Source of the DNA: Verpa conica | Lineage: Eukaryota; Ascomycota; Pezizomycetes; Pezizales; Morchellaceae | Assembly (NCBI GenBank): GCA_033030425.1 | Contig: JAUFSD010000021.1 | Coordinates: 248,001 to 312,000 of the forward strand | Direction: 5' to 3' | DNA: 64,000 bases | Shown here: positions 1,721-40,257 of the stretch, piece after piece | Position numbering within the stretch: the first letter of the stretch is position 1 | Layout: every line of letters begins with the position of its first letter | The notes under the pieces: model-generated | What the model saw: the letters and a program-made list of their open reading frames with translations, nothing else | Told to the model about the DNA's origin: nothing | The model's database searches: none | Program-made: the position numbers and the translations under genes

Positions 1721-4548
1721 TATCTACCGATATGATATAGTTTAATTCAGATATAATATAGAAGTCTAGGAGAGTAGAGAAATCTCAAGTAGAGTTATAA
1801 AACGGTTACTCAGAGCTCATGACCCAGGAGTACCACCGCCAGCAGAGGATTTATATATGTAATTTCCCCGCACCGTTGATCAAAGCTCCCTTGAATTATA
1901 TCTCCCAGGAGTTTTGTCCTTGGGATTGCCTTAATCCCAAGCCTTCCTGTTGCTCCGTCGCAACTTCATACAACCATAGCCAATCAATACCTCCGGATTT
2001 CTTTGCCGTCCATAGGCACGCGGTGATGTCACTTTCGCTTAGCCGAAAATTTTCCCACATTATTGCTGTTTTAAGCTTCGCTCTAGAGGTTTTTTGTTTT
2101 AAGAGAACTCTCAAGCCTTCAGACTCACCCTCCTACTGAAACTCGTTTCTAGGTATGGATAGGCATCAGCTAGGGAATAACTAAGGAGCTAGGTAGCCAG
2201 GTACACGGTACTTTGGCCAAGTCGATCTGCGACTGGGTAGCTAAGAACGCTTATCGGATCACCACGCATTAGTTGCAACTGCACCTAGTCCCCTATCCGA
2301 TGGTGCGATGGTTCACTTTGGCATCTCTGTTTTCTAGCCTTAGTCTAGACCTGGCTATTTATTAGGGTAATGCATAGCAATTATCTTGATCGACATTAAA
2401 AGAGTTTCGAGGTCAGCCAAAGCTTTTATCGATTGATAAACTGTAGTAGCGGTGTTTGGCCGGTAGCCAGACGAAGCAGGGGACCAAAGCATTACAACAG
2501 CTAAATTACTCTAGAATATCATTCTTATCAGCCGTCGATACGGGTATAAACACGAAATCAAAGGTGTGGGGTTGACCAACTAATTCAACAATACCATAAG
2601 CCAAGATAAACCAAGAATAGTTATCAGACAAGTTATTTTCAGTCTCTTTGTCTCTCAAATAAATTATTAAACTTTGTAAATAGTGCCAATCAGCTAGAGG
2701 TAGCCCCACGATACCCAAAGTTATGGGATCAGCCTAGGAAGAGTTTGTATTATGCATAACTCAGTGCCGCACTTAGGGCAGTTCTCAGTGCATAGAATTT
2801 TAGGTAACCTTAATATATAAGACCATGTGTCAGTAAACATAGCCAACTAGATATCATTACTGTATTTCGAGAGTGAACTTTGGTATGAGACATTACTAGA
2901 TCCAGAGTGCACAGTATAGTATAGTCATCGCTTACCCACTTCTATTTGTTGAGAATATAATCCCTCAAAGCTGTTGATCAGATTCCCGCCGCCACTCATA
3001 AACCAAATAAAAAATGTGGGTATCCGGGCAAAGACACTAAATCTAAGGTCAATAATTCTATCCCCAATATACGTTAAGCGTGAAAAAAGGGAATTTAGGG
3101 TTGCGTAATTCCACACAAAATCACTCGACCATGAATTCGACTGCAAGGTACTCAATATCGAGCCCAATTGGCCTTGATATCGACAAAATAAAACCAGGAC
3201 TTAAAAGAGACATTTGATACTCTATTTCTCATACGCACTACTACCCTTGTCGCCACTGGATAAGGACCTAAAGGGTAGTGGGAGACATTTTGGCCAATAG
3301 AGAGCGTTGGAGGTCACTACATGTATTTACTACACGTAAGAAGAATAGATTCCTATGACTAATATCAGCCATGCCGCACGTATGATGTGAGTTGAATCAT
3401 GTGAAGATGGTTTACCTGTCCGGCCACAGAACTAGTCACTGATCTTCGCTTCGCTTCTAGCAAAAGGGTTTACCCAAAACAACCAAGTGGTAAAACGATG
3501 ACACAGGCTCTGCAACAGCCCCTTAAACAGTATCCTGTGAACTGAAGGTAGAACTACCATATAGTTTAAATCGTTTAAATGGGTTGCCCACACGGGCTGA
3601 CTAGGTAATTATCCGAGTGATTAGCAAGAACCTAAAATCATTGAAAGGCTCCCTAGTCTCTTTCGATTGCAGTATAACATACCTCCCTGATGGCCCTAGA
3701 GTTTCCGTGATCCGGAAGGGTCAGTTCATGATGAATAGATGCTGGTGGGATCGAATGATAGTCATTCCTGAGTGGGGTTCCTATCTGGTGATAAATATGA
3801 GAGAGATAAGGTGGTGGGGATGATTAGACTCTGGCAAGAACAACTACCTCGAGCCGTGCCCACAGCAATATCAACGAGTGACGAGTAGTGACCAGATGAC
3901 CAGATGACAAGCCAAAGCTATGAGTTTTGGCCCCCATAGACCTTGTTTTCTTTGGTATGTACAAGCGCATTAGGTAATTAGGCAAAGCGTCTTTACATAC
4001 CAACAGTTGCCAAATAACGCAGACAAATAAAAGGATTAGTTTTAAAATAGAGAGACGGGCTATGTGCGAGCATCTACTTCGCTTAATCCCGTATGTGTAC
4101 AAAAAAAAGCACAAAACCATACATGAATATATAAGGAGAGTCTTTTAATTTTAAGGTGGGTGTGGTAATTATTCTTCCAACTATTGAAGATTAGTATCTA
4201 GAAAAACATGATATCGTGTGAGGAGTAGGTACTGTGGCTGATTTTTCTGGGATTTGTCCTCTGTACTCGACAATATTGTACCTTAGATCCAAAGCTCCTG
4301 TATGCGAGGAACCCTGGGCCTAACAATCTTTGCTGCTCCCCACCTATTTGTGCATAGATTACAGCCACTGAGCTTCACTCACACTAGTAGGGATCATAGG
4401 AGCTAAAACCCCTGTTGCCGGAGGATCATTTAAAGGGTTTCATATCGGGACAGCACCCCTGTGTGTAACATACACAAAGAGTCAATTCCCTCGCGATTCT
4501 TCAGAAATCTTTAAATTTTCTTTTTATGTGTATCAGCCCAACCACAGG
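1721..4548. other. Gene-poor AT-rich stretch
   Basis: No frame longer than about 106 codons and none with recognisable protein similarity. The sequence looks like decayed intergenic DNA. A short local duplication (GACCAGAT) lies near 3893-3908. No tRNA, rRNA or clear repeat was found. Confidence 0.5.
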
Positions 4549-34700: not shown

Positions 34701-35427
34701 AACAGGCTCCGTATGCTTCTTTTACTAAATATTAACTCTAATACTATAATAAAAAAAGCATCAGCGTCAGCGTGTCCATCAAAAGCACTAAGGGCGTACT
34801 TGGTATAGTATTACGTACCTTGATAGGCACCCCAAAAATTTGCCCAAGTACCTTTCGGTTCGGTAATGGCTCACTAATGATCTCCTCTTGAAGCTTGTGA
34901 CTATTTCTGCGGTGCCCTCTATGTTTTATCCAGGCGCCCTCTATAGAGCACAATGCCAGAATACTCAGTGTCCTTCATGTATGGAATCAGACGATAGGGT
35001 AGATGTGATTACTCGCCGGCTGATGACCTGTTAATACGTTGTTGATCATAACAAAGGATATAAAGTCCGGATTGTCTCTTTGTGTTGTAGGATCGTTCAT
35101 TTGATTTGCGTTGCTGGGGAATGGTTTTCTTTGCTGCCGTCTCTAGGGTATTGATGACACTAGGTGTTAGGTTCTTACACCAAATATCACTCGGGTAACC
35201 TTTCACAACCACACCTAACTCGTGCCAGCACCACATCAAGCCATGTCAATGTTACAGCACCAAAGACTTATTAATGTCCGATTTCAATTTCAATTTCCTA
35301 TTCGGCCAGGTTCTCTGATATACAAAAAAAAGCTCATGCTACTAAAGAAAGAAAGAAAGAAAGAAAGAAAGAAAAGCCAGAATCCCTTAAAACACTCCCA
35401 CTCCCACTCCCATCACGTAAGTGCAGT
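31787..35427. other. Intergenic, 3.6 kb
   Basis: No gene recognised. The CT-rich stretch next to 31787 is probably the Acinus 5' region. From 32.1 kb the sequence is AT-rich. Four CAGGAA(C/T)G(C/T)(C/T)-like motifs occur at about 33717-33815. A (GAAA)n run lies at 35344-35374. Confidence 0.45.
35344..35374. repeat. (GAAA)n microsatellite
   Basis: About seven GAAA units just beyond the 3' end of CPA1. A similar run lies in intron 2 of the ETF-beta gene (near 28180-28198). Confidence 0.75.
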
Positions 35428-37067
35428 TTAGACAGCAGCAGCAGCAGCTTCCTTAGCTCCAATATCCGCCTTCGCGCTCGCAGCCCTCCTCTCAACTTCC
35501 CTCAAAACGTGGCCTGGCGCAACACCAACCCTCTGCTTACTCAAGATATCAACCAAGAGGGGGCTAGGCCTTCCAACCCTTCCAGGGGCGGAGGCACTCT
35601 GTTCTGCCTTAAAGGCTGCGACTTGATTGAGGTAGTCATCAAAGAGAAAGCTAGAATCAAGGGGGCCACCCTTGGCTTCGGGATGGAATTGAATAGACAT
35701 AATAGGTCGAGAAGTGTGGATAATTCCTGTGGCACAGAGTTAATATTGTATGTAGCAGGGGGAAAGGTGTTACAAACCCTCGTTAGACCCATCGTTAAGG
35801 TTGACAAAGTATTCCTTCCAGTCAGCAGTAGGAAGGGTGGACATATCAATAGCATATCCATGGTTCTGGGAAGTAATATGACAACGTCCAGTGGTGAGGT
35901 CAAGCGCAGGGATGTTGTGGGCACGGTTTCCGTACTTCAACTTAATGGTCTTGGCACCTGCAGCGAGGGCAAGAAGCTGGTGTCCGAGACAGATACCCAT
36001 GATAGGGCCAGTATAGGTCTCCATCATCTTACGAAGATGGTAGACAGTCGTAGCACAGTGAGTTGGGTCACCGGGACCGTTGGAGCTACATATTACAATG
36101 TCAATGACTCATTATCCAGAAAAACCACGGAGGGGAAGACAAACATGAAAACACCATCAAAGTGGTGCGCAACTTTGTGGATAGGATAGTCCCAGGGGAA
36201 GCAAGTAACGCTTGATCCCCTGCTAACCAAACTCCTCAAAATATTCTCTTTAACACCACAATCGATGACTGCAACGTGGCAGTCACCGGTAGCACTCGCA
36301 ACATGGAACGGTGCCTTTGTGGACACCTTCGCAACTAAATTGATCTGTTCAGGATCGACAAACGCCTCATCCTGATCCGCATCGTACTCCTCTCCAATAG
36401 TGATTCTTGCGAGAGAAGAACCCTGCTCACGGAGGTACGTGACAATGGCCCTAGTATCAACACCAGTGATGGCAGGAACACCCTCACGAGCACACCAATT
36501 ACCGAGGGACTCAACTGCAGTCCAGTGAGAGTATTTCTCGGCGACATCGGCAACGACAACACCAATGGCTTGGAGATGAGGAGACTCAAAATACTTTAGG
36601 AGGCCATCTTGGTCACGTGCATCAGAGGGGACACCGTAATTTCCAATGAGCGGCTGGGTGAAGACGAGGATCTGACCACGATAAGAAGGGTCTGTGAGTG
36701 CTTCAGGGTACCCAACGAGGGCAGTTGAGAAGACTGCTTCGCCGGAGGTGTTGGATCGTGCACCGAAGGATTTTCCGTGGAAGATAGGACCGTTCTAGGG
36801 GTTCTCAGTCAGTACCGGGAATCAAATGGGAGCGTGCATGAGTCATTGGGCTGCAGTTGATCAGGTAGACGTTCGAGATAGAAGAAAACTCACTCTAATG
36901 GTAAAAGTTGCCCTGTCGTGGCTGACAGGAGTGCTCTTCTTCCTCTCCGGCTGTGGCATCTGCCTCCCAGCGCTTCCAGTAACGGTAGCAAGATTCCTGA
37001 CCTGCCTCAAGCCATTGAAGCGGGAAGTGGCATTGAGGCCCTTGGCAAAGATTTGACGGGCAAACAT
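35428..37067 (-). CDS. CPA1: Arginine-specific carbamoyl-phosphate synthase, small (glutaminase) subunit
   Basis: Model: complement of join 35428-35726, 35778-36085, 36145-36794, 36894-37067 (476 aa). Residues 1 to about 30 ([20 protein letters not shown]...) look like a mitochondrial presequence, as in Neurospora arg-2. The small-subunit N-terminal domain follows ([27 protein letters not shown]). The class I amidotransferase domain has the Cys307 nucleophile in [10 protein letters not shown] and His392/Glu394 in [10 protein letters not shown], so the triad is complete. It supplies ammonia from glutamine to the large subunit for citrulline and arginine synthesis. All three introns (51, 59, 99 nt) join conserved blocks in frame, for example FDGVFI-SNGPGDP. 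Expression is probably controlled by the attenuator uORF upstream. Confidence 0.96.
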
Positions 37068-37189: not shown

Positions 37190-37599
37190 TTAATAGGAGC
37201 TGTTCTTCCAGATGTGATCTACAGGCAGGAAGAAGGTTATGTTAGCCCCGCACACCAAATACTTGAGGCTCCCTCAGAGGTGGGGTGGAGTGGGGGTATT
37301 TTAATGGGGGTTTCCTTCCCCTGCATACCTGAGAGATAATCCTATAGCAAACACGAAATCAGCACGCAATTCAGACCAATTAATGACGTATGGATATCAA
37401 AAGAAAAACGGATTGATGTAAAAAAAAAGAGGCAAAAAGCTGATGGGGAAATAAAATCCACAAATAGGGCCAAAAAGCCATTCTACTCCACACGGCTGGA
37501 GGAGGGGCAATGCAAAACTGAACTAGTGTGGGCCAGAACTTCATGGAAGCAAAGTAATGCACATACCTGTGAAGTGAATACGGAGGGAACAAATCGCAT
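37190..37599 (-). CDS. Arginine attenuator peptide uORF of CPA1, split in three exons
   Basis: Model: complement of join 37190-37218, 37329-37341, 37567-37599. Exon A encodes MRFVPSVFTSQ and ends at a GTATGT donor. A 13-nt micro-exon encodes DYLS plus the first base of the next codon, between CTATAG and GTATGC. Exon C completes DHIWKNSSY and a TAA stop. The result is 24 residues with Asp12 and Trp19 at the positions known from the Neurospora peptide. The family works by stalling the ribosome at the uORF stop when arginine is high, blocking initiation at CPA1 and promoting mRNA decay. The uORF stop lies 122 nt before the CPA1 start. The second intron has a GCTAAC branch and the first GCTGAT. 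The exact length and conservation make chance assembly unlikely. Confidence 0.88.
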
Positions 37600-38967
37600 A
37601 CGGGCGACTTTCAATTGCAAGAGATCTCCTTTGTATTAATTGAAAGGAAGATGACTCGAGCAGTTTTTATCTGTGGGAAATCTTCACTTTACCAACTTGG
37701 GGTTGGTCAAGGGTGGCTGTTTGAAAAGGAGGAGAGAAAATTTTCAGAAGTAGGCTCTTTCTTTTGCAGGCTGTAGTCGTGATATACTCGAGTGGGGGGG
37801 GGAGAGATCCGGTGGACTTTATGGGCTGCGAAGAGATCCTCTGAGGCAAAAAAATTACAGGGAAGGAACCCGAGCAGCGATGTTAAGTTGAGGTTGGTGC
37901 GTAACTTTCCTGCGCGGGGGGGAGAGGGAGGGGAGATGACAACGCAGCCATTGGCCAATGTCTCGGTTCCGATCAGTGGCCTGGGCACTTGCATAATCCC
38001 TCCTCGGACCTGCAATACCACGACAACAGTTAGTTTTCTTGATTTCATGTCGCACTCACCGATAGAGTACATACATAGGTACAGTTTGCCTGTGATCATG
38101 AATGCTTTTTCTCTGCCGGTTTGAAATTATTATTACATGTATGTACCCCAGAACTTGAGAAAAACAACTTTCCCTGGACCCTGAGTACAGTACGGTACCT
38201 TATCCGCATTCAACTACCTTGCTCGTGACACAGGGCTCCGGTATTTAGCAACCTGAGATCTCGGTTCACCTTATAAGATTTGACGCATTCTGTATGCACG
38301 TCATAATTTGTAATTAGGAATGCATGAGGATTGATGGAAAATATCTTATCAATACTATTGTTTCGATATGCCGTACGTGTAGGCCCCACAAAGCGGCTCG
38401 GAAACAAACCAGCCGGAGCATGGAACAAAGAACAAAGCAGCCACATATATTTAGCCCGTTATCGCCCAGTTCCATCACCTTGGTTAATGCGCCACCCGGA
38501 TCCCCAACCCGGCTAGATACATACATTACCTGCTTCACATCCGATCACTCGTCTAGGATCCTCAACGCAATGCAATATTGAATGGATGAATGAATTAATT
38601 GGAGCTCTAAGGGCAATTCAATATCTTCTATTAGTGGTAGTCATGAGGTAAGGATTCCAGCAATAATCTTATAATAATAATAATCTCTGCTATATAGGAA
38701 CATGTACATGTATATAGAGCAGCTAACAAAAAAGGCAATAAGGCCTGCTCTACAGTCTCCAGAAGAGCTCTGCCACCAATTGGCCTCGAGTATACCTACA
38801 AAACCCGCCAAGGCCATAGTGCTCAGTGATATATACCATTCATCACCTACCCTATTCCTATCCATACACAATATCCGCCTGTCAAAAACCCTCAAGACTC
38901 TCGGTCTTTATATATCCACACCGCTTCGCTAGTTTTATTAGTGTCATAACCTTCCGCATTCCTTCTG
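37600..38967. other. CPA1 promoter region and RMT2 3' flank
   Basis: No other gene seen. The sequence before 37599 should hold the CPA1 promoter. No confident Gcn4/CPC1 site (TGACTC) was picked out by eye. Confidence 0.4.
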
Positions 38968-40257
38968 TCACCCTAGGAATTCACAAATCGGCAACTTATA
39001 CTCTGGAATTACCCAATATCTCCTCCTGACTCCATCCCACACTTTACCACCCTCCTCCATGTCATCTTCATCCTCGCCATCTTTCTTTAAAGGTATAACC
39101 TCCCACTTAGTTTCTAGCCCCGCCTCAAACATGTCCATCGCAACTACGCGAGTGTAAACATCATATGAAATCCTCCGATCCGCTCCTAGCCCGTGGAAGA
39201 AGCTGAATTTACCGCCTTCCGCCACGGGAGCCAGGAGTGCGATCACGTATTCACTGAAGAAGTTACGAAGTTCGTCATAGGACTCGGCGAAAGTATCAAA
39301 GTAGATAGCGTGGAATGTTACACCTTTGTTTATTAGGCCCGGGAGAACCTGCTGCTAGTTAGAAATCGAGCGATAAAATAGGATGGGGAAAGCTGCACAT
39401 ACATCTTGCCATCTTCCTTCAAGAATCTCAATGCCTTCCTTCTTATCCCACCCATCTTCCTTCATCTTTTTCAGCACATCTGGATGCGGTTCAACAATAA
39501 CATGCTGACTCGGTTTCTTCGCCTGGAAAAAACCATCTATTATCCCCATCCCAAATCCAATATTCAGAATCCTCTTTCCCTCAGCCTTTCCAACAAGCGC
39601 TGCCACACTCTTCTCCATAATTCCTCTCTCCCACTCCATCATAACCCCGTTATTATCCGAGTCAAGCAGCTTATCGTCATGGTATGTCAACCTTGAGGCT
39701 AGATAATCCTTCGAATTCACATCCTTCACCTCCTTCACCTCCTCCGGTTCCAGCTCCAGCTGCGTCACCTCTGTCTGTGGTGTTCCTACAGTCTCCTGTA
39801 CCAACTCTGTCTCATCCCCCCCCTCACCACCTTCACCACCCTCTATACTCTCCTCTTCACCCCCACTAAGCTCCTCATATCCTCCCAATCTCCCCAGGAT
39901 TAACTCAGCTCTCACACCAGCCTCTACCATAATCTCATACAAGCTCGTCAATCCTAACCGGTCTGCAATACACCCTGGCGTCTCGCCACTCACATCCAAA
40001 TCATTCCATATCGCGCCGTTCTGCAACAACAACTTTAGCGTCTCCTCGGCAGCCTTCAACTCTTCTTCCGTATCCCCTGGCGTACAAGACGCAACCGCAA
40101 CATGTAATGCCGTCTGTCGCGTCTCTGGGTCAAAAACATTCGCAGATGTAGTTTTGAGCAATGATTCAACGACGGGGATGTTGTGATCTGTTGCTGCGAG
40201 AAGGAGCATTGTTGATGCTGGATCTGTTGGGCTATTTACTGGAATAGTAGTTGCCAT
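38968..40257 (-). CDS. RMT2: Protein arginine N-methyltransferase 2 (delta-N type) with ankyrin repeats
   Basis: Model: complement of join 38968-39348, 39403-40257 (411 aa). Residues about 15-120 are ankyrin-like (TALHVAVASC, LLLQNGAIWNDLDVSGETPG). An acidic Gly/Glu-rich linker follows (about 130-180). The methyltransferase has YLASRLTYHDDKLLD, SAM-binding motif I ILNIGFGMGIIDGFFQ (about 230-245), HVIVEPHPDVL and HAIYFDTFAE. This architecture is specific to fungal/plant RMT2, which methylates the delta nitrogen of arginine, for example on ribosomal protein uL11 in yeast. The 54-nt intron (GTATGT, CTAACTAGCAGCAG) restores GRWQD-VLPGL. The tandem AGCAGCAG acceptor could add one or two Gln residues. 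Length is normal. Confidence 0.95.

Follow-up and report, generated by a model that had tools for sequence, protein, structure and literature searches.

A predicted arginine attenuator uORF of Verpa conica CPA1, split over three exons with a 13-nt micro-exon

Among regulatory nascent peptides the arginine attenuator peptide (AAP) is a textbook example, and the leader of the CPA1 gene of Verpa conica raises the question of whether such a peptide can be encoded in pieces that only splicing brings together. The leader was examined within a 64-kb stretch of contig JAUFSD010000021.1 (the window). When minus-strand positions 37599-37567, 37341-37329 and 37218-37190 are joined by the removal of two GT..AG introns, the product reads MRFVPSVFTSQDYLSDHIWKNSSY, followed by the stop codon TAA (Table 1). 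The joined uORF has 24 codons plus TAA, with Asp12 and Trp19 in the positions seen in the AAP family. The original prediction had assembled three pieces into exactly 24 residues with these two amino acids so placed, and its coordinates, lengths and residues were all reproduced on joining. It had also assigned DYLS to the micro-exon, which is borne out with one refinement: this exon also holds the first base of the Asp16 codon, hence the phase of intron 2. Intron 1 separates the codons of Gln11 and Asp12, and intron 2 interrupts that of Asp16. Being internal, flanked by splice signals and, at 13 nt, below the size limit of about 30 nt, the middle piece qualifies as a micro-exon, predicted from the sequence. 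The earlier observation of a three-exon AAP uORF with a 13-nt micro-exon is confirmed.

Table 1. Predicted features of the CPA1 leader and gene in the window
Feature	Coordinates	Strand	Details	Basis
uORF exon A	37567-37599	-	MRFVPSVFTSQ, 33 nt; CCCGTATGC, C at -3, weak start	Joined frame and start context
Intron 1	37342-37566	-	225 nt, phase 0; GTATGT...GCTGAT...CTATAG	Joined frame, splice and branch signals
Micro-exon	37329-37341	-	13 nt, GATTATCTCTCAG; Asp12-Tyr13-Leu14-Ser15 and first base of Asp16	Joined frame, splice signals
Intron 2	37219-37328	-	110 nt, phase 1; GTATGC...GCTAAC...CTGTAG	Joined frame, splice and branch signals
uORF exon C	37190-37218	-	Remainder of Asp16, HIWKNSSY, stop TAA	Joined frame, PDB match
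Spacer, uORF stop to main start codon	37068-37189	-	122 nt, without ATG	Sequence
CPA1 coding exon 1	36894-37067	-	Start CGAATATGT, A at -3, strong context	Frame, TIGR01368
CPA1 coding exon 2	36145-36794	-		Frame, TIGR01368
CPA1 coding exon 3	35778-36085	-		Frame, TIGR01368
CPA1 coding exon 4	35428-35726	-	With stop codon	Frame, TIGR01368

Comparison of the spliced product with attenuator peptides had been put forward as a check on the original prediction. Against PDB chain sequences (phmmer, E up to 10) the joined peptide gave a single match, to the AAP chain 2xl1_A (E 3.9e-7), in an ungapped alignment over positions 4-20 in which 14 of 17 residues are identical. We take this chain to be the AAP of Neurospora crassa, whose residues 1-3 and 21-24 were added to the reference for the identity scores given below; the C-terminal end of the Verpa peptide, HIWKNSS, looks closer to the yeast CPA1 peptide. 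The AAP core comprises about residues 9 to 20; the critical Asp is number 12, and Trp19 also has a role. That the conserved Asp is critical to AAP function is also stated in the cited part of a study of an arginine-responsive uORF in Toxoplasma (PMC8370653). By its sequence, the joined peptide is an AAP: it shares the similarity of the core, has Asp12 and Trp19, agrees with the expected length of about 24-25 codons, and lies upstream of a carbamoyl-phosphate synthetase (CPS) small subunit gene. Its context also agrees: by its sequence the uORF start would suit leaky scanning, and the next ATG is that of CPA1.

The downstream gene was identified as encoding the CPS small subunit by model TIGR01368, which scores 445.4 bits (cut-off 307.35). 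Its four joined exons form an open frame of 476 codons, and the coding introns are 99, 59 and 51 nt long. Among the best 120 of 7,999 scored relatives of the protein, the closest, P0001 and P0002, stand at 91%, followed by Rhizina undulata at 81%, with Peziza and Terfezia among the others. Rhizina belongs to the Pezizomycetes, and the relatives thus point to a probable pezizomycete host. P0001 and P0002 are encoded on contigs of about 2 kb (2,061 nt for the longest with P0001, 1,930 nt for P0002), which by their lengths may be transcripts that could accommodate a leader. Of the 120 relatives, nearly all are about 420-495 residues in length, which fits a small chain alone. Several, P0033 and P0074 among them, bear the name of the arginine-specific small chain, and many others are named as CAD or otherwise. 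A search of the genome found one further related locus (contig C23), in three stretches of 42-65% identity. This was considered as a second CPA1 copy and rejected, as its frames carry glutamine amidotransferase, CPS-large, MGS-like and aspartate/ornithine carbamoyltransferase domains (Pfam), the make-up of the pyrimidine enzyme. As no related locus was found besides that of the pyrimidine enzyme, the gene in the window is of the arginine type; this and the TIGR01368 score uphold the original naming of the attenuated gene as CPA1. The interpretation as a CPA1 attenuator uORF split over three exons is well supported.

Two further observations concern the surroundings of the gene. Just behind the CPA1 stop codon, at about 35344-35376 on the minus strand, is a run of TTTC repeats that probably belongs to the 3' UTR. 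The upstream neighbour, on the same strand (38968-40257, minus), has ankyrin repeats in its first reading frame (PF13637, above cut-off), and its coding sequence seems to run on below 39355. It looks to us like the arginine N-methyltransferase Rmt2, which would make it an arginine-related neighbour of CPA1; no methyltransferase model matched in the same search.

The splice signals of the leader were examined next to those of the window as a whole. Both introns are GT..AG with exactly one CTRAY branch motif each (GCTGAT in intron 1, GCTAAC in intron 2), in agreement with the proper junctions and good branch sites claimed for them at the outset. The donors, GTATGT and GTATGC, are each preceded by CAG, 17 and 23 nt follow the respective branch A, and in each case the acceptor is the first AG past the branch motif. 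On both strands of the window, and by criteria chosen after the introns had been seen, 73 of 7,117 GT dinucleotides have the form GTATG[T/C], and 154 of 3,913 YAG trinucleotides are the first AG at 5-45 nt after a CTRAY. Ahead of a branch motif and YAG, GTATGT occurs 10 times in the window (6.45 expected) and GTATGC 7 times (5.65 expected); for the donors of the CPA1 coding introns the figures are 6 against 6.65 (GTGAGT) and 6 against 7.8 (GTTTGT). By similarly post hoc criteria, four micro-exon-like units with all signals are present on the two strands of the 64 kb, the uORF micro-exon included. The other three have their first base at 3695 (minus), 4287 (plus) and 54592 (minus), and are 13, 13 and 8 nt long. 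The uORF introns lie at CAG/G and CAG/A (the slash marks the splice junction), two of the three MAG/R sites in the 75-nt frame, and these sites stem from the codons of Gln11-Asp12 and Ser15-Asp16. This origin suggests how a strongly conserved peptide may attract introns.

The order of the start codons has the pattern that leaky scanning requires. The first ATG below 37951 is that of the uORF itself; its context is weak (C at -3) and that of the CPA1 start is strong (A at -3), with a spacer free of ATG. Further upstream, some 60 nt ahead of the uORF ATG, the sequence TGCTCGAGTCATCTTC (about 37652-37667, minus) contains GAGTCA, presumably part of a Gcn4/CPC1-type site; a full TGA[C/G]TCA was not found within 1 kb upstream.

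Taken together, the locus very probably represents a working AAP uORF of the CPA1/arg-2 kind, in three exons, spliced for the most part constitutively and with a core that is complete only after splicing. The pre-mRNA would be processed in this way in most cases, an efficiency that draws no support from known AAPs, and the first ATG of the mature leader would then be that of the 24-codon uORF, in a weak context. Part of the scanning ribosomes would bypass it and initiate at CPA1, the next ATG, and the rest would translate the uORF. At high levels of arginine, the completed nascent peptide may, through its core, stall the ribosome at the uORF stop codon, which would block scanning to CPA1 and expose the mRNA to nonsense-mediated decay. 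For AAPs in general, the cited parts of earlier reports describe leaky scanning past the start codon (PMC7969011), and stalling at the uORF stop codon with decay of the mRNA (PMC11550727; PMC7049704); stalling, the arginine response and mRNA decay in V. conica would follow by analogy with such known AAPs.

The constitutive part of this reading bears on what incorrect splicing would produce. As the 13 nt do not make up a whole number of codons, skipping of the micro-exon changes the frame and gives a different uORF of 26 codons, MRFVPSVFTSQITSGRTAPIKTSNHI; retention of intron 1 gives one of 38 codons, and retention of intron 2 one of 45. None of these three mis-spliced forms has a complete core, so that arginine sensing presupposes accurate splicing, and splicing is predicted to gate that sensing whether it is regulated or not. 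A cell could exploit this by splicing the micro-exon alternatively, inclusion giving the AAP, skipping the 26-codon form, which lacks the sensor, and retention of an intron the 38- or 45-codon form, and so set the fraction of CPA1 mRNA that obeys arginine. Apart from the frame shift on skipping and the loss of the core in all three forms, such control would be in keeping with the length of intron 1, which at 225 nt exceeds all three coding introns of CPA1, and with two precedents: a 20-nt micro-exon in Xlr2 of Trichoderma virens is given as glucose-dependent in the cited part of its report (PMC11121469), and the leader of N. crassa SAM decarboxylase is described as spliced with or without two predicted uORFs in the text cited (PMC5640933). 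The good splice and branch signals on both sides of the micro-exon speak against it, as does the outcome for RNA structures or known RNA elements, which were considered and set aside: no Rfam model matched in the window at gathering scores and folding is unremarkable (z -0.72 for intron 2, -0.96 for intron 1 and 0.20 for the whole stretch), leaving no sign of a structure that controls splicing. Regulated inclusion is improbable, if the best of the alternatives.

Considerably less likely still is that the split uORF is a relic, either because the leader is usually not spliced in this manner or because transcription begins downstream, so that CPA1 has been freed from AAP control. The uORF would indeed be bypassed if transcription began inside or below intron 1. 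The 24-residue frame, Asp12, Trp19 and all four splice sites are intact, however, which argues against decay; the identity to the N. crassa AAP at 14 of 17 residues over positions 4-20 and the retained order of a weak uORF start before a strong main start point the same way.

The freedom that splicing gives to the assembly of short frames was measured by enumerating all 24-codon ORFs of one, two or three exons on both strands (GT..AG introns of 40-300 nt, middle exon of 6-27 nt) and scoring them by identities to the N. crassa AAP, with three-exon combinations having fewer than two matches in their first two exons pruned alike everywhere. After pruning, 8,223 and 12,247 three-exon frames remained on the two strands. 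The proposed three-exon frame is the best in the 64-kb window, at 15/24. Other splice choices at its start codon reach at most 12/24, no other start codon in the window exceeds 8/24 on either strand, and 20 dinucleotide-shuffled strands give 9/24 at best. Contiguous and two-exon AAPs were rejected as candidates in the window, their best scores being 5/24 and 7/24, and the absence of a contiguous attenuator ORF, as claimed originally, holds. A chance assembly of unrelated GT..AG fragments is highly improbable despite the thousands of combinations that splicing permits, given a score of 15/24 against 9/24 and 8/24 in the controls and a position directly upstream of CPA1.

Uninterrupted forms of the peptide were also looked for. 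The joined peptide found no match in a six-frame search of its own genome (run without a positive control), a miss that is expected of a split ORF but does not confirm one. The uninterrupted core, written as the DNA pattern DY[L/I/M/F]SDH[L/I/M/F]W with a TCN serine, was absent from the 45.8-Mb genome; elsewhere the pattern matched 10 stretches in a collection of prokaryote genomes and two in viral contigs. These 12 were rejected as AAPs, since their translations look like chance and two have stop codons right around the core. One of them, L011 (Erwinia), shares two more residues past the core, Arg-Ala, which we take to be as in the N. crassa peptide. The scarcity of such matches shows that an accidental core is rare.

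What is new in this element, relative to the known AAP mechanism, is a core that has to be put together by two splicing events. In the parts of the literature searched, neither introns nor micro-exons were found described for an AAP uORF, which does not in itself show that none is in print; the paper of Hood, Spevak and Sachs (2007) is said to be devoted to the evolution of AAP genes. If the core is spread over three exons, arginine control of translation hangs on the fidelity of splicing. Scans for contiguous uORFs would overlook such AAPs, and any claim that intron-rich fungi have lost the AAP would have to be re-checked. Were inclusion of the micro-exon regulated, a splicing switch would sit atop a nascent-peptide sensor, acting all or none through the frame-changing length. 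The split uORF also offers a simple test of whether splicing and nascent-peptide sensing are coupled.

Several known systems share part of this arrangement. Micro-exons as such are known from filamentous fungi. The 20-nt micro-exon of T. virens Xlr2 is likewise a very short internal exon of a filamentous ascomycete, not a multiple of 3 in length and part of a functional core, and is called by its authors, in the cited text, the first functional case in filamentous fungi, with no reads joining the flanking exons (PMC11121469). It differs in lying, according to the same text, in the DNA-binding domain of a transcription factor, whereas that of Verpa is part of a leader peptide, where it would act as a gate on translational control. 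In N. crassa SAM decarboxylase (SDC motif), leader splicing decides whether the predicted uORFs are present in the mRNA, but the system does not concern arginine, the cited part mentions no micro-exon, and the authors saw no direct tie between motif and splicing (PMC5640933). uORF homology group 8 and its relatives are similar in having introns at conserved places within a short conserved ORF, but are not related to arginine, and no micro-exon is mentioned in the portion cited (PMC2075485). The uORF of Toxoplasma TgApiAT1 encodes a leader peptide that responds to arginine, depends on a critical Asp and is AAP-like in sequence, for which its authors suggest convergence with the AAP; there, however, a transporter is controlled, the uORF has 99 bp within a 703-bp 5' UTR, and the one transcript intron is not placed in the uORF in the text cited (PMC8370653). 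Closest are the AAP uORFs of N. crassa arg-2 and Saccharomyces cerevisiae CPA1, which are like that of Verpa in length, core, Asp12 and Trp19, and in their place ahead of the gene for the CPS small subunit. They also share the pairing of a weak uORF start with a strong main start, and a spacer free of ATG. What would set the Verpa frame apart from both is that it exists only after the removal of two introns, both of which lie within the core.
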